Shown: positions 47,346 to 63,552 of the stretch, piece by piece | Layout: the number at the start of each line of letters is the position of its first letter | Numbering within the stretch: the stretch's first letter is position 1 | NCBI RefSeq assembly: GCF_024296665.1 | Contig: NZ_CP100762.1 | Coordinates: 2,976,001-3,040,000, forward strand | Length of the DNA: 64,000 bases | Reading direction: 5' to 3' | Origin: Salinilacihabitans rarus | Lineage (GTDB): Archaea > Halobacteriota > Halobacteria > Halobacteriales > Natrialbaceae | Made by a program: the position numbers and the translations under genes | Notes under the pieces: model-generated | What the model saw: only the letters and a program-made list of their open reading frames with translations | What the model was told of the DNA's origin: nothing | Databases searched by the model: none

Positions 47346-47429
47346 GCGAGGGTAGCCAAGCAGGCCAACGGCGGTGGGCTTAAGACCCGCTCCCGCAGGG
47401 GTCCGAGGGTTCAAATCCCTTCCCTCGCA
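47346..47429 (+). tRNA. tRNA-Leu (anticodon TAA)
   Basis: A complete 84-base class II tRNA. Acceptor arms GCGAGGG and CCCTCGC pair fully, then discriminator A. The anticodon loop CTTAAGA gives TAA. A long variable arm (CTCCCGCAGGGGTCC) precedes the T-arm GAGGGTTCAAATCCCTTC. No intron and no encoded CCA. Its 3' end is repeated downstream, so it is the likely integration site of a mobile element. Confidence 0.97.
47408..47429 (+). repeat. Putative attachment site inside the tRNA-Leu 3' end
   Basis: The 22-base sequence starting GGTTCAAATCCC and ending CCTCGCA recurs exactly at 47523-47544. It spans the T-arm and acceptor strand, the usual site of tyrosine-integrase crossover in archaea. Confidence 0.65.
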
Positions 47430-47463
47430 CTCGGCGCTCACTCTTTCGTGAGCGCCGAGTGCG
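47426..47463. terminator. Long perfect hairpin at the tRNA-Leu end
   Basis: A 16-base perfect stem (CGCACTCGGCGCTCAC and its complement) with a six-base loop, TCTTTC. It begins inside the last four bases of the tRNA. It has no T-run after it. It may act in termination or 3' processing, or be a recombination structure of the element relic. Confidence 0.6.
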
Positions 47464-52438: not shown

Positions 52439-53251
52439 TCACTCGCCGGTTCGAAAGGACAGGTCGAGCGCCGGCGCCGAGTGGGTCAGCGACCCCATCG
52501 AGACGACGTCGACGCCGGTCGCGGCGTAGTCGGCGACGGTCTCGAGCGTGATGCCGCCGCTGACCTCCGACAGGACGTCGTAGTCGGCGAGCAGGTCGAC
52601 GGCGTCCCGCGTTTCGGCGGGCGTCACGTTGTCGAGCAGGACGACGTCGGCGCCGGCCGCGGCCGCTCGCGGGGCGTCCTCGACGGACTCCACCTCGACC
52701 TCGATTTTGGTCGCGAACGAGACGCGCTCGCGGAAGTGCGAAACCGCGCCTTCGAGGCCCAGTTCGACGACGTGGTTGTCCTTGACCATGACCATGTGCG
52801 AGAGGTCGAGCCGGTGGGTGTCGCCGCCACCGGCGACGACCGCGCGCTTCTCGATGCCGCGGAGGCCCGGGGTGGTCTTGCGGGTCGCGGCGATCCGCAC
52901 GTCGGGCGATTCGGCCCGGGCCTCGTCCACGACCGCTCGCGTCCGCGTCGCGATTCCCGAGGCGTGGGCCGCGAGGTTGACGGCGACCCGTTCGCCCCGG
53001 AGCACCTCGCGGGCGGGCCCCTCGACGCGGAGGAGGTCGTCGCCCGGTTCGACCGCGGTGCCGTCCGCGAGGCGCTCGCGGACGTCGACGCCGAGGTAGT
53101 CGAAGACCGCGCTCGCGGCGTCGAGGCCCGCGACGACGCCCGCCTCCGTCGCGACGAGGCGGCCGGTCGTCTCGCCCGGAACGTCGTTGGTCACGTCGTG
53201 GTGGCCGACGTCCTCGCGGAGCCAGCGTTCGACCTGTGCGTCGGTGATCAT
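52439..53251 (-). CDS. nadC: Nicotinate-nucleotide pyrophosphorylase (quinolinate phosphoribosyltransferase)
   Basis: Converts quinolinate and PRPP to nicotinate mononucleotide, the third step of NAD de novo synthesis. The 270-residue protein has the NadC hallmarks: WLREDVGHHDVTNDV, NLAAHASGIATRTRAVVDEA, ATRKTTPGLRGIEKRAVVAGGGDTHR and VMVKDNHV, then EVEVES, LLDNVTPAE and SEVSGGITLETV. The ATG at 53251 is the family start. It is the last gene of the nadA-nadB-nadC group; a small gene on the opposite strand lies between nadB and nadC. Confidence 0.95.
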   Translation of the reverse strand: MITDAQVERWLREDVGHHDVTNDVPGETTGRLVATEAGVVAGLDAASAVFDYLGVDVRERLADGTAVEPGDDLLRVEGPAREVLRGERVAVNLAAHASGIATRTRAVVDEARAESPDVRIAATRKTTPGLRGIEKRAVVAGGGDTHRLDLSHMVMVKDNHVVELGLEGAVSHFRERVSFATKIEVEVESVEDAPRAAAAGADVVLLDNVTPAETRDAVDLLADYDVLSEVSGGITLETVADYAATGVDVVSMGSLTHSAPALDLSFRTGE

Positions 53252-53529: not shown

Positions 53530-55077
53530 TCAGGGCTGTCCGCCGGCGACCGGCTCCCGCTCGTCCCCGTCGACGACGTAGTGACAGCCCGTCGACTCCG
53601 GGTTCTCGCTCGCCGCCCGCGCGATCAGCAGCGCGACGACGCTGGCGTTTCGTAGCTCGTAGAGGTCGCGGGCGGTCCGGGTGCGGACGTAGGCGGCGAC
53701 CTCGCCCTTGAGCCGCCGGAGGACGGCGCTCGCGCGGGCGACCTCGTCGGGGTCGCGTTCGAGGCCGAGCGCCTCGTCCACCGTCCGCCGCAGGCGGGCG
53801 AACTTCTCGGCGGCGAAGCGCGGGGGCAGGTCGGGGTCGCTGTCCCGGAGTTCGGGCGCCTCCACGAGTTCGGGCTCCGCGCCCGTTCCGGCGGCGTCCT
53901 CGCCGGCGCGCAGCCCCCAGACGAGCCCCTCCAGCAGGCTCGTGCTGGCGAGTCGGTTCGCGCCGTGGACGCCCGTCCGGGCGCACTCGCCGACGGCGTA
54001 GAGCCCGTCGAGGTTCGTCCGGCCGCAGTCGTCGACGTCGACCCCGCCGCAGAGGAAGTGCTCGCAGGGGGCGACGGGAATCTCGTCGCCGTCGATCCCA
54101 CGGTCGCGACACGTCGCGGCGACGTTCGGGAAGTCGGCCGCGAAGTCGAGGGGGCTCACGTCGAGGACGACTTCGCCGGTTCGCTCGCGCTCGCGGGCGA
54201 CCGCGCGGGCGACGACGTCCCGCGGGGCGAGGTCGGCGTCGGGGTGGTAGTCGGGCATGAACCGCTCGCCGTCGGCGTTCCGGAGGACGGCGCCGTCGCC
54301 GCGCAGCGCCTCGGAGAGCAGGAAAGTGTCGTCCCGCGCCGCGGGGTCGCCGCGTCGCGTCTCGTCCCCCGCGTAGGCGGTGGGGTGGAACTGGACGTAC
54401 TCCATGTCCGCGACGTCCGCGCCCGCCAGCGCGGCCATCGCGATGCCGTCGCCGGTGGCGCCGTCGGGGTTGGTCGACCGCGAGTAGAGCGCGCCGATCC
54501 CGCCGGTCGCGAGGACCGTCGCGCCGGCGTAGACCGGACGGCCGACCGGGTCGTCGTCCGTGACGACGCCGTGGACGCGGCCCTCGCGGGCGATCAGTTC
54601 GAGCGCTGCCGTCTCCTGTCGCATCTCGATCCGGTCGTGGCCGTCGAGGTAGGTCAGGAAGGGCCGCAGCACGTGCCGGCCCGTCGCGGCGTCGACGTGG
54701 AGGATGCGACGCTCGGAGTGGGCCGCTTCGCGCGCGTAGTCGAACGCACCGTCGTCGGTCTCGTCGAAGGGGACCCCGAGGGTGTCGACGAGCACGTCCT
54801 CGACGGCGTCGTCGGCCTCGCACACGAGCACGTCGACCGCGTCGGGATCGGCCGTGCCGTCGCTTGCCGCGACGACGTCCCGTTTGAGGCTCTCCGGATC
54901 GCCCCGGGTCGTCGAGATGCCGCCCTGTGCCCAGTCGGTGCTGGCGTCGTCGGGACGGCTCGCCTTCGTCAGGACGAGCACGTCCGCGCCCTCGCGCGCG
55001 GCGGCGAGAGCCGCCGCACAGCCGGCGATGCCACTGCCCACGACGAGGACGTCCGTCGTTTCGCGTGTGCCGGTCAT
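53530..55077 (-). CDS. nadB: L-aspartate oxidase
   Basis: FAD enzyme oxidising L-aspartate to iminoaspartate for NAD synthesis; 515 residues. The FAD-binding N-terminus is VLVVGSGIAGCAAALAAAREGADVLVLTK, then STDWAQGGISTTRGD. The substrate region has VQFHPTAYAGDETRRG and LLSEALRGDGAVLRNADGERFMPDYHP. CEHFLCGGVDVDDCGRTNLDGLYAVGECARTGVHGANRLASTSLLEGLVWG is the family core. It starts one base after the nadA stop. Confidence 0.95.
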   Translation of the reverse strand: MTGTRETTDVLVVGSGIAGCAAALAAAREGADVLVLTKASRPDDASTDWAQGGISTTRGDPESLKRDVVAASDGTADPDAVDVLVCEADDAVEDVLVDTLGVPFDETDDGAFDYAREAAHSERRILHVDAATGRHVLRPFLTYLDGHDRIEMRQETAALELIAREGRVHGVVTDDDPVGRPVYAGATVLATGGIGALYSRSTNPDGATGDGIAMAALAGADVADMEYVQFHPTAYAGDETRRGDPAARDDTFLLSEALRGDGAVLRNADGERFMPDYHPDADLAPRDVVARAVARERERTGEVVLDVSPLDFAADFPNVAATCRDRGIDGDEIPVAPCEHFLCGGVDVDDCGRTNLDGLYAVGECARTGVHGANRLASTSLLEGLVWGLRAGEDAAGTGAEPELVEAPELRDSDPDLPPRFAAEKFARLRRTVDEALGLERDPDEVARASAVLRRLKGEVAAYVRTRTARDLYELRNASVVALLIARAASENPESTGCHYVVDGDEREPVAGGQP

Positions 55078-55078
55078 C

Positions 55079-56212
55079 TCAGACCTCCAGCATGCGGTCG
55101 AGCGCGACCTTCGCGAGTTCCGCCTCCTCGGGGTCGACCTCGATCACGTTTCGTTCCCGTCCCTCGGCGAGTTCCTCGAGCACCCACGTCAGGTAGTTGG
55201 GGTCGATCTGGCGCATCGCGTTGCAATCCATGCAGGCGTCGCCACAGAGCGGCAGGACCTCGACCTCCGGGTGCCAGCGCCGGAGGTGGCGGGTGAGGTG
55301 GATCTCGGTGCCGACCGCCCACGTCTCGCCGGGGTCGGCGTCGGCGATCGTCTCGCGGATCGTGCTCGTCGAGCCGACGACGTCCGCGGCCTCGACGACC
55401 TCGCGGCGACACTCGGGATGGACGACCACGTTCGCGTCGGGGTGTTCCTCACGGATCGCCGCGACGTGCTCGTCGGTGAACCGTTCGTGAACCTGACAGT
55501 AGCCGTCCCAGAGGATCACGTCCGCGTCGGCGACCTCCGCAGGGTCTTTGCCCTCGGGGTCCCACGGGTCCCACTCGGCGATGCGGTCTTCCACTCCCAG
55601 CCGATAGGCGGTGTTCTCGCCGAGGTGCTTGTCGGGCAGGAAGAGCACCGTGTCGCCGCGCTCGAAGGCCCACTCGAACGCGCGGTGGGCGTTCGAGGAC
55701 GTACAGACGAGGCCGCCCTGACTCGCACAGAACGCCTTCAGGTCCGCGTAGGAGTTCATGTAGGTGACCGGGACGATGTTCGCGTCCGGCGCCGCGTCGG
55801 TGATCTCGGCCCACGCGGCGTCGACCTGCAGGGCCTCGGCCATCCCGGCCATCGGACACGACGCCTCCATGCTCGGGAGGATCACCGTCTGGTCGTCGTC
55901 GGTGATGACGTCCGCGCTCTCGGCCATGAACGTCACGCCGCCGAAGATCACGTACTCGGCGTCGGTCTCGGCGGCCCGCTTCGAGAGCCCGTAGGAGTCG
56001 CCGACGAAGTCGGCGTGCTCGACGACCTCCCGGCGCTGGTAGTTGTGGCCGAGCACGACGACGTCGTCGCCCAGTTCCTCGCGTGCCGCCTCGATCCGTT
56101 CCGTTCGCTCGTCTTCTTCGAGGTCGCGATACGCCGGCGGGAGCTGTTCGAGGTGGCCGTACTTGAACAGACTCAGTTCGGTCTCCAGGTTCGACGCGTG
56201 AACTTTCGCCAT
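55079..56212 (-). CDS. nadA: Quinolinate synthase A
   Basis: Condenses iminoaspartate with dihydroxyacetone phosphate to quinolinate, using a [4Fe-4S] cluster. The 377-residue protein has [48 protein letters not shown] and [12 protein letters not shown]. The cluster cysteines are expected in the [14 protein letters not shown] and [14 protein letters not shown] regions. The ATG at 56212 is chosen because upstream codons are arginine-rich and lie in repeats. It is the first gene of nadABC and has a strong inverted repeat upstream. Confidence 0.95.
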
Positions 56213-56246: not shown

Positions 56247-56277
56247 CCGTATTGAAAACGTTTTTCTTTCAATACGG
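56247..56277. promoter_or_regulatory. Inverted repeat upstream of nadA (candidate operator)
   Basis: A perfect inverted repeat with 11-base arms, CCGTATTGAAA and TTTCAATACGG, and a nine-base A/T-rich spacer, lies 35-65 bases before the nadA start codon, just upstream of the expected TATA position. This geometry suits a dimeric regulator of the NAD operon. Confidence 0.65.
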
Positions 56278-56358: not shown

Positions 56359-57393
56359 CTACCGCCGCGCGCCGGTGCCGGGCCGGTCGAGTGCTTCCAG
56401 ATCGATCCGCCCGCCGGGCAGCGGGACGCCGTCGACGGGGTCCTCGGCGAGCAGCAGCGAGCCGTCGAGGTCGGCGTAGTCGAGCAGCGGCGCGAGGTGG
56501 CAGGCGGCGGCGATGGAGGCGTTCGATTCGGACATACAGCCACACATCACCTGCAGGCCGTGGGCGCGTGCGGCGTGGACGATCCGGATCGCCTCCCGGA
56601 GGCCACCACACTTCATGAGTTTGAGGTTGGCGACGTCGCACCGACCCGCAACCTGTGGCACGTCGTCGGCGGTGATGCAGGACTCGTCGGCGGCGATCGG
56701 CAACGACGAGCGCTCGTAGACGTAGCGCAGTCCCCCGGGGTTCTCGGCGGGGACTGGCTGCTCGACGAACTCGAGGTCGTACGCGGCGAGGCGGTCGATC
56801 TTCCGTACGGCCTCCTTCGGCGTCCAGGCCTCGTTGGCGTCGACGTACAGTCGCGCGTCCGGTGCGGTCTCGCGGATCGTTCGAACGATCTCCTCGTCGC
56901 GGTCGGTGCCGAGTTTCACCTTCAGCGTCCCGTGGCCGCGTTCGAGGGCGAGTTCGGTCTTCTCGCGCATCGTCTCCGTGTCGTCGATGCCGATGGTGTA
57001 GGAGGTCTCGACGGTCTCGGCCGGGTCCAGCCCCCAGTAGCGGTACAGCGGCACGTCGAGACGCTTGGCGACGAGGTCGTGCAGGGCGACGCTGACCGCA
57101 CAGCGGGCGGCGGGGTTGCGCTCGACCGTCTCGCGCATCCGGCGCTCGATCCGGGCGAGCTGGTGGGGGTCGCCGACGTCCTCGACGACCGCGAGCAGGT
57201 CGGGGAGGACGGCCTCGACGGTGGCGGCCGTCTCGCCGTAGTGTGCCGAGGGACCGGCGCCGCCGATTCCGACGGTGCCGTCGTCCTCGACCTCGACGAA
57301 CACGACCTCCGCGTGGGTCTGCGTGCCGCGGGCGATGGTGAATGGGAACTCGAGCGGGAGCGAGCGGCGCTCGAAGGAGGTTTCGAGGCTCAT
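56359..57393 (-). CDS. dgcA: N-acetyl-D-glutamate racemase-like enzyme (enolase superfamily, DgcA type)
   Basis: A 344-residue enolase-superfamily protein of the dipeptide-epimerase/mandelate-racemase type. LKVKLG carries the catalytic Lys pair. Metal ligands lie in [17 protein letters not shown] and [18 protein letters not shown] supplies the second catalytic Lys, and CGCMSES is the distal loop. It overlaps dgcN by four bases. In other bacteria and haloarchaea the DgcN-DgcA pair converts D-glutamate to N-acetyl-L-glutamate. A dipeptide epimerase role is the alternative if the neighbour is ignored. Confidence 0.8.
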
Positions 57394-58409
57394 AGGAGCG
57401 CGTCGAGCACCCCCTCGGCGCCGAAGCGGACGAGGTCGGTCGCGGGCGCGCCGAGAGCGTCCGCGTACTCCTCGACGGCGTCGCGGGCCGCCCCGTCGTC
57501 GTCGATCCCGTAAGTGTTGAGCGCGCCGGCGTGGACGCGTGCGGGCGAGACCGGTTCGGCCAGCCCCTCGTAGAGGTCGACGTAGGTGGGGATCGGCGGA
57601 ATCGCGGTGTCGTAGCCGTGGGCGATCGTCTCGCGGCCGGCCTCGTGACAGAGCACCAGTTTGTCCGCCCGCGAGCCGTGGAGGATGCCGCAGGTGACCG
57701 CCGAGTAGGCGGGGTGGATAATGGTGCCCTGCCCCTCGACGAAGAGGTAGTCGTGTTCGTCGCCTTTCGCGACGATCATCTCCTCGACGGCGCCGGCGGT
57801 GAAGTCGCTGACGACGCGGTCGACCGGGTTCCCCCAGCCCTCGATCATGATGCCGGTCTGTCCGGTCGGGATCACGGCGGCGTCGTGACCTCGTTCCTCG
57901 GCCGCCCGCGCCAGTTCCATCGTCGCGGTCATCTTCCCGACGTTACAGTCGGTGCCGACGGTGAGGATCACCTCGGCGTCGACCTCGCCGGCGACCCCCT
58001 CGGCGACGGTGACGTCGTCGTGGGGCCTGCGGACGTCCCGCAGTTCGCCGCCGTACTCGGCCGCGAGGGCGGCGAACTCCTCGTCGTCTTCGAGGAAGTA
58101 GTGCAGCCCCGAGACGACGTCCCAGCCGCGTTCGAGCGCCGTCCTGACGTCCTCGCGCCAGCCGTCCTCGAAGCCGCCGCCGACGGGGGCGATGCCGATC
58201 AGCAGGGCGTCGGCGGCGTCGGGGTCGAGGTCGGACACCCCGGAGACGATGGGAGCGTCCCGAACGTCCGGGACCAGATCGTTCACCCGGTCTGCGGGCC
58301 GGTCGCGGTCGAGTACCGCGGCGACCTCGTAGTCGGCGTACCGGAGCACGCCGAGGGCGGTCTTGGCTCCGTCCGGAAACTTCTCGTGGGCGAGAATCGC
58401 GACGCGCAT
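57390..58409 (-). CDS. dgcN: D-glutamate N-acetyltransferase-like protein (DUF1611, DgcN type)
   Basis: A 339-residue DUF1611 protein. N-terminal Rossmann-like domain (about 1-130), then a P-loop-like segment, [24 protein letters not shown] (about 160-185). [34 protein letters not shown] and [13 protein letters not shown] follow, all typical. DgcN proteins acetylate D-glutamate before racemisation by DgcA. Together they give a D-glutamate catabolic step. It is the first gene of the two-gene operon. Its adjacency to the nad operon is probably incidental. Confidence 0.8.
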
Positions 58410-60674: not shown

Positions 60675-61334
60675 ATGGACTCCGCCGCGTTGCTGGACCT
60701 GCTCGGGAACGAGAACCGGAGACGGATCCTCCGGCTGCTGGCCCGGAAACCCTGTTACGTGACGGAGATCTCGGAGTACCTCGGCGTGAGTCCCAAGGCG
60801 GTGATCGAGCACCTGCGGAAACTGGAGGAGGCGGGACTCGTCGAGAGCCACGTCGACGACCAGCGCCGGAAGTACTTCCACATCGCACGGAACGTCCGCC
60901 TCGAGGTGAACGTCTCGCCGTACGGCTTCGCGAGCAAGAGCGCCTACCCCGCGAGCAACGGCTTCGACATCACCACCTGCCGGCACGTCTCGCTCGACGT
61001 CTCCTGGGACGATGCCGACGACCTCGACGATCTGCTGGCGGCCCTCGAGGACCTGGAACAGGTCGAGAACGAACTCTCGCTGGCCCAGCGGTGGGTCCAG
61101 GGACAGCTGTACGACGTCCTCAATACGATCTCCTCGGAGATCGGTGCCGGCCCCGAGAGCCGGATCTACGCCGACCTGCTCGCGAGCATCCGCACGGAGC
61201 CAAAGAGCGTCGCCGACCTCAGCCACGACATCGGCGTCCCCCGCGAGGTCACCGCCGACCTGCTCGAGGTGATGGCCGACGAGGGGATCGTCCGGCGCAC
61301 CGAGCGCGGCTGGGAACTCGCGACCGAGGCCTAG
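60675..61334 (+). CDS. ArsR-type helix-turn-helix regulator
   Basis: A 219-residue regulator with an N-terminal winged helix (about 1-75): LLDLLGNENRRRILRLLARKPCYVTEISEYLGVSPKAVIEHLRKLEEAGLVES. A longer C-terminal region (about 80-215) ends in a second HTH-like segment: PKSVADLSHDIGVPREVTADLLEVMADEGIVRRTERGWELAT. No metal-binding cysteine pattern of classic ArsR is evident. It may regulate the exported DUF7096-like gene next to it. Its stop shares CTAG with the convergent membrane protein gene. Confidence 0.8.
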   Translation: MDSAALLDLLGNENRRRILRLLARKPCYVTEISEYLGVSPKAVIEHLRKLEEAGLVESHVDDQRRKYFHIARNVRLEVNVSPYGFASKSAYPASNGFDITTCRHVSLDVSWDDADDLDDLLAALEDLEQVENELSLAQRWVQGQLYDVLNTISSEIGAGPESRIYADLLASIRTEPKSVADLSHDIGVPREVTADLLEVMADEGIVRRTERGWELATEA

Positions 61335-62256: not shown

Positions 62257-63552
62257 ATGAATCCCGGAGACCGCGTCCGCGTCGAGCGCGGCGCGCGGAC
62301 CTACGAGGGCGTGTTGCTCCCCTCGAGCACCGACGACAACCTCGTCGTCAAACTCGAAGGCGGCTACAACGTCGGCGTCGACCGCGCCGCGGCCGACGTC
62401 GAGGTGCTCGAACCGGACGTCTACGACGTCGGGAACGGCGACGAGGACGAGGCGAGTTCCGAAGTCGAGTTCGACGACGACCTGCCGACGATCGCCCTGA
62501 TCTCGACCGGCGGGACCATCGCCTCGACGGTCGACTACCGCACCGGCGCCGTCACCGCCCAGTTCGACGCCGAGGACGTCCTGCGTGCCGTCCCGGACCT
62601 CGCGGGCCGGGCGAACTACCGCGGCCGGGTCGTCGCGAACATCCTGTCGGAGAACATGGAGCCGTCCATCTGGCGGGACCTCGCCGAGGCCGTCCACGAG
62701 GAGATCGCGGCCGGCGCCGACGGCGTCGTCGTCATGCACGGCACCGACACGATGCAGTACTCCGCGGCGGCGCTGGCGTTCGCGCTGGAGACGCCCGTTC
62801 CGATCGTCTTCACGGGCAGCCAGCGGTCGGCCGACCGCCCGTCCTCGGACAACGTGATGAACGCGGTCTGTGCGGTCGAGGCGGCCAAGAGCGACTGCGC
62901 GGAGGTGCTCGTCTGCATGCACGCAAGCGAGAGCGACGACGTCTGCGCGCTCCACCGCGGCACCCGCGTCCGGAAGAACCACACCTCCCGCCGGGACGCG
63001 TTCGAGACGGTCGGCGCGAAGCCGCTGGGCGAGGTCGACTACGAGACCGGCGAGGTGACGTTCCGGCGCGACCACCGCGAGCGCGGCGAGAGCGACCTCG
63101 CGATCGCCCCCGACCTCGAAGACGAGGTCGAACTCCTCAAGTTCACGCCCGGGATGGACCCCGCACTCCTCGACGTCGTCGAGGGCAAGGCGGGACTGGT
63201 CCTCGAAGGGACGGGGCTGGGCCACGTCCACACCGACCTGATCCCGCGGATCGAGGCGTTGGTCGACGACGGGACGACGGTCGTCATGACCAGCCAGTGT
63301 CTCGAAGGGCGGGTCTGTGACCGCGTCTACGACACCGGTCGCGACCTGCTCGACGCGGGCGTGATCGAGGCTGGCGACACCCTCCCCGGGACGGCGACGG
63401 TGAAGCTGATGTGGGCGCTCGCCAACGCCGACGACGGCGCTGAACGGAGCGCTGCTGGCGGTCGAAACGCCGGGCGTTTCGACGACGTCGAGGAGGCGAT
63501 GGGCACGTCGCTCGCGGGCGAACTGCAGGAGCGGTCGGTCCCCTGGGAGTGA
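62257..63552 (+). CDS. gatD: Glu-tRNA(Gln) amidotransferase subunit D
   Basis: Asparaginase-type subunit of the archaeal GatDE enzyme that converts Glu-tRNA(Gln) to Gln-tRNA(Gln). The 431-residue protein has an N-terminal beta domain (about 1-80), then the asparaginase core: LISTGGTIASTVDYRTGAV (first catalytic Thr region), VVMHGTDTMQYSAAALAFAL (second Thr-Asp pair) and TGSQRSADRPSSDNVMN. TSQCLEGRV closes the active site. An acidic insert near 400 is normal for haloarchaea. gatE is not visible in the window. The next gene starts inside its stop (GTGA). Confidence 0.95.
   Translation: MNPGDRVRVERGARTYEGVLLPSSTDDNLVVKLEGGYNVGVDRAAADVEVLEPDVYDVGNGDEDEASSEVEFDDDLPTIALISTGGTIASTVDYRTGAVTAQFDAEDVLRAVPDLAGRANYRGRVVANILSENMEPSIWRDLAEAVHEEIAAGADGVVVMHGTDTMQYSAAALAFALETPVPIVFTGSQRSADRPSSDNVMNAVCAVEAAKSDCAEVLVCMHASESDDVCALHRGTRVRKNHTSRRDAFETVGAKPLGEVDYETGEVTFRRDHRERGESDLAIAPDLEDEVELLKFTPGMDPALLDVVEGKAGLVLEGTGLGHVHTDLIPRIEALVDDGTTVVMTSQCLEGRVCDRVYDTGRDLLDAGVIEAGDTLPGTATVKLMWALANADDGAERSAAGGRNAGRFDDVEEAMGTSLAGELQERSVPWE

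Follow-up and report, generated by a model that had tools for sequence, protein, structure and literature searches.

The window (the whole 64,000-nucleotide stretch of DNA that was analyzed) carries a nadABC operon on its minus strand. The nadA gene, encoding quinolinate synthase, was identified as an open reading frame at 55079..56212 with a PF02445 match in the window's genome. It is followed on the same strand by a gene at 53530..55077 for an L-aspartate oxidase, which we take to be nadB from the operon named in the first-pass annotation and from sequence knowledge. The third open reading frame, a nadC-like quinolinate phosphoribosyltransferase gene, occupies 52439..53251 (minus strand), and its start (MITDAQVERW) was picked by similarity. 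Among 100 loci, nadB adjoined nadA in 97 and nadC followed nadB in 96, the genes upstream of nadA were not conserved, and no conserved regulator gene generally adjoining nadABC was found among the neighbors. In the window, the upstream neighbor of nadA is an open reading frame with an enolase-superfamily (MR_MLE) domain match at 56359..57393 on the minus strand, which we do not think to be part of the regulon described below. It forms a gene pair (56359-58409, minus strand) with a gene for a DUF1611/DgcN-like protein.

A perfect 11-bp inverted repeat, CCGTATTGAAA-N9-TTTCAATACGG, is present at 56247-56277 exactly as the first-pass annotation had given it. On the nadA coding strand (minus), this operator candidate reads CCGTATTGAAAGAAAAACGTTTTCAATACGG, and it precedes the nadA ATG (56212, minus strand) by 35-65 nt. 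Pattern search with TTGAAA-N9-TTTCAA returned a single mismatch-free copy in the window and a single one in the 3.62 Mb host genome, and only 0.04 matches with up to two mismatches would be expected in the window. Perfect inverted repeats with arms of at least 11 bases were found at four other places in the window, all of them GC-rich, where ~2.4 would be expected by chance. Thus, arms of this length are not unique, and the repeat by itself is weak evidence; it becomes significant because it is conserved in all of the retrieved nadA loci. The perfect inverted repeat observed at 47426-47463, CGCACTCGGCGCTCAC-N6-GTGAGCGCCGAGTGCG, is longer, and the sequence TCGAAACGCCGGGCGTTTCGA at 63462-63482 is two mismatches off the half-site pattern and has no link to the regulon. 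The window also encodes an ArsR-type regulator with a Cmi2 C-terminal domain (60675-61334, plus strand), which was considered as the regulator and dropped, since it showed no link to the site.

For the comparison, 80 haloarchaeal nadA loci were retrieved and examined together with the window, giving 81 sequences. A version of TATTGAAGRNAAAANNTWTTCAATA (TTGAA-N11-TTCAA) was located shortly upstream of nadA in 80/80 loci and in the window. The proposal of an operator candidate for the nadABC operon was therefore borne out, and the pattern search that had been suggested with it revealed conservation before nadA in 81/81 sequences rather than absence from the relatives. Column counts over these sequences delimited a 25-bp conserved core, TATTGAA-N11-TTCAATA, at 56250..56274 (minus strand), in which positions G5, A7, A13, and T20 were invariant and several others varied in one or two sequences. 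Regarding the repeat unit as first described, the inverted TTGAA half-sites were conserved, but the outer CCG/CGG was not, and the core is better given as TTGAA-N11-TTCAA, whose outer half-sites are symmetrical and whose interior contains a conserved, asymmetric AAAA. The repeat had also been placed just upstream of the expected TATA. However, it is the conserved AAAA-NN-TWTTCA within the repeat that more closely resembles the BRE/TATA, and the inner AAAA-NN-TTTTC of 56250..56274 may be this element; an overlap between the site and the core promoter is thus probable. Alternatively, the nadA core promoter could account for most of the conserved block, the inverted symmetry being incidental; in favor of this, the inner AAAA and TWTTC lack symmetry, are nearly invariant, and are spaced plausibly from the start codon. 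However, both outer TTGAA half-sites are conserved as well.

A near-exact form of the site pattern was then searched in 118 genomes of the order. As a result, 49 matches were obtained, one each in 49 genomes, and 44 of them were located before nadA by coordinates; the reversed control pattern matched in one genome only. The matches in G060 and G032 had no recognized target, and those in G065, which showed no nadA match, and G117 preceded a sodium:solute symporter (SSS) gene. The symporter gene of G117 is followed by one for a regulator of the HFX_2341 family. Among strict palindromes in the 118 genomes, 19/21 were located at nadA, SSS, MFS, or HFX_2341 genes, and the palindrome TTYGAAGA-N7-TCTTCRAA was common to three gene groups, namely SSS, MFS, and nadABC. 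We built a symmetric matrix from 64 transporter sites, with zero nadA sites included. This matrix selected the nadA site as the best match in 81/81 nadA upstream regions, in all cases above the 99% level of shuffles, and the site in the window scored 16.3 compared to a shuffled 99% level of 4.3. The recovery of the nadA sites by a matrix trained on transporter sites, together with the occurrence of the same spaced palindrome at differing distances before SSS, MFS, and HFX_2341 genes, argues against a core promoter of incidental symmetry, which we regard as very improbable. Even less credible is a function of the repeat at the RNA level or in terminating transcription of the upstream gene; although it is located between two same-strand genes, it is conserved as sequence while the genes upstream of nadA vary, and it is common to unrelated promoters. 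From these comparisons, we infer that the inverted repeat before the NAD genes is a genuine control site conserved across haloarchaea and not a product of chance.

The protein encoded beside the sites belongs to the same equivalog family (DUF6293, PF19810, NF051475) as HFX_2341/crr of Haloferax mediterranei. The HFX_2341 protein of the window's genome scored 573.5 bits over its full length compared to the NF051475 cut-off of 500. It also matched the PADLOC CARF3 model (E = 7.5e-161) and, weakly, Csa3 (E = 7e-4), and Pfam assigned DUF7776 to its C-terminus. No HTH model of Pfam matched the protein, the sequence profile search found no relative of solved structure, and domain profile searches found no Nudix, 3H, or NadR domain. 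A C-terminal DNA-binding domain has been recognized by HHpred (PMC11434293). According to the same study, deletion of HFX_2341 in H. mediterranei grown in rich medium raised the expression of genes by which amino acids and coenzymes are transported and metabolized, and RNA-seq indicated that HFX_2341 acts as a repressor of transport and metabolic genes (PMC11434293). It was published as a global, CRISPR-related repressor whose targets include cas genes, with neither a DNA site nor a ligand named (PMC11434293), whereas we read it here as a probable regulator of NAD genes. The text of that paper does not mention NAD or nicotinate, and no link between HFX_2341 and NAD was found in the open-license literature searched, although an earlier description may exist elsewhere.

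We next analyzed the association between HFX_2341 and the symporter. The SSS of the regulon is a PanF-like sodium:solute symporter, and the HFX_2341 gene is usually the next one downstream. Of the 76 genomes having both genes, 46 carry them as same-strand neighbors no more than 3 kb apart, and in 9 further ones they are within 15 kb. The palindrome TTYGAAGA-N7-TCTTCRAA, scored out of 16 with a threshold of at least 13, was located mostly ~290-360 nt upstream of the SSS start. It reached the threshold in 51/76 genomes with HFX_2341 compared to 0/6 without it and 5/1640 shuffles, where part of these SSS data had also served to recognize the palindrome. SSS promoters scoring 12 or less were observed in a third of the genomes with HFX_2341, and the window's own genome showed a score of just 13. 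The genus of G033 provided mostly fresh data, comprising 53 genomes, 51 of which have the symporter. In this genus, the palindrome was located before SSS in 43/43 genomes with HFX_2341 compared to 0/8 without it (Fisher p = 1.6e-9, a value that overstates independence because the genomes without HFX_2341 are related, a tree of 30 symporters needing at least two HFX_2341 losses). The wider set of genomes adds other families. The HFX_2341 gene is in some cases also close to nadABC. In G004, it lies directly after nadC, starting 110 bp downstream, and the HFX_2341-nadA spacing in further genomes of that genus fits this arrangement. In Natronomonas (L055), nadABC, HFX_2341, and SSS are within ~6 kb, with HFX_2341 convergent with nadABC and SSS adjoining.

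These data bear on whether the repeat could be a true operator of another regulator, HFX_2341 being merely genetically linked to SSS. Such a situation would agree with the usually large distance between nadA and HFX_2341. It would also agree with G033, which lacks HFX_2341 and has kept its nadA site; the score of 23.0 is inside the range of the relatives and shows no clear decay, indicating that the core promoter may account for some of the conservation at nadA. However, at the SSS gene, the operator and HFX_2341 were lost together, and where HFX_2341 is instead divergent from an MFS gene, the site has moved along with it into the spacer between the two. We therefore consider another regulator unlikely and HFX_2341 the preferred candidate.

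The MFS carrier was found in 13/36 genomes without SSS compared to 0/82 with SSS (p = 3e-8). The palindrome was located 75-112 nt upstream of all 13 orthologous MFS genes, and a 46%-identical MFS paralogue in G116 lacked it. The carrier gene is often divergent from HFX_2341, an arrangement seen in genomes without nadA and without the symporter, and in five genomes the palindrome lies between the two genes. The best solved relatives of the carrier are SV2 proteins, and its best matches, which were below curated cut-offs, are in the SV2/aromatic-acid branch of the MFS. The nicotinate transporter NiaP belongs to the SV2 part of the MFS; the regulon carrier resembles it in having SV2 relatives but differs in that the NiaP model gave no match. 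SSS or MFS was present in 34/34 good-quality genomes without nadA compared to 53/64 with nadA (p = 0.008), and the presence of one or the other in every nadA-less genome is expected if these carriers import an NAD precursor. Thus, SSS and MFS are candidate NAD-precursor transporter families, with a substrate suggested by this distribution. SSS as an obligatory niacin transporter of nadA-less genomes was rejected, as SSS alone showed no association with the absence of nadA (p = 0.62).

We observed site conservation, occurrence of the site at three gene groups, adjacency of genes, and joint loss of the site and its presumed regulator. On this basis, we consider it quite likely that the repeat is the nadABC operator for an HFX_2341-family regulator, which would also control an NAD-precursor transporter and repress both synthesis and uptake when NAD or one of its precursors is in ample supply. 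This regulator and its regulon, neither of which had been named in the first-pass annotation, are new proposals of the present analysis. In the proposed mechanism, HFX_2341, comprising a CARF-type N-terminal domain and a C-terminal DNA-binding domain, would bind physically as a dimer to the two TTGAA half-sites, which are 16 bp apart from center to center. The bound dimer would block TBP/TFB at the overlapping BRE/TATA, resulting in repression at nadA, and repression of synthesis and uptake in response to a presumed NAD-related ligand would probably proceed by covering the promoters. The transporter under its control would be the PanF-like SSS or, where this is replaced, the SV2/NiaP-like MFS carrier. 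HFX_2341 may also control its own gene in some genomes. In bacteria, the repressors NrtR, NiaR, and NadR control NAD synthesis genes and, in some cases, niacin uptake. The logic of one repressor for both was thus already known, but the HFX_2341 protein family and site are different.

If this is true, HFX_2341 would switch the synthesis or the import of NAD precursors, and a control of archaeal NAD synthesis would be described, with two candidate archaeal transporter families for NAD precursors named. Furthermore, a regulator that occurs in most haloarchaea and has so far been read as CRISPR-related would be assigned a DNA site, together with a small, defined regulon and a likely role in cell physiology. 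Csa3-type CARF-HTH regulators share the CARF-like N-terminal domain with HFX_2341; Csa3 is tied to CRISPR, whereas the targets of HFX_2341 found here are NAD genes and transporters. A more tentative idea, held with rather less than even confidence, is that the ligand sensed by the HFX_2341 CARF domain is not a cyclic oligoadenylate but NAD itself or a nucleotide precursor of NAD, which would tie haloarchaeal cas expression to the NAD state of the cell. HFX_2341 would then have a metabolic function within a domain family that is known for antiviral signaling.

In the window's genome, the HFX_2341 gene is located outside the window (G000:C1:1665146-1666057). A stretch of ~21 kb (G000:C1:1644230-1665190; L246, L247), likewise outside the window, separates it from the symporter gene and is flanked by a pair of 46-bp direct repeats derived from the 5′ end of HFX_2341. 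This stretch is probably an integrated element with the HFX_2341 gene as its attachment site. Short fragments of the HFX_2341 5′ end were also observed in G109, G254, G262, and G276.
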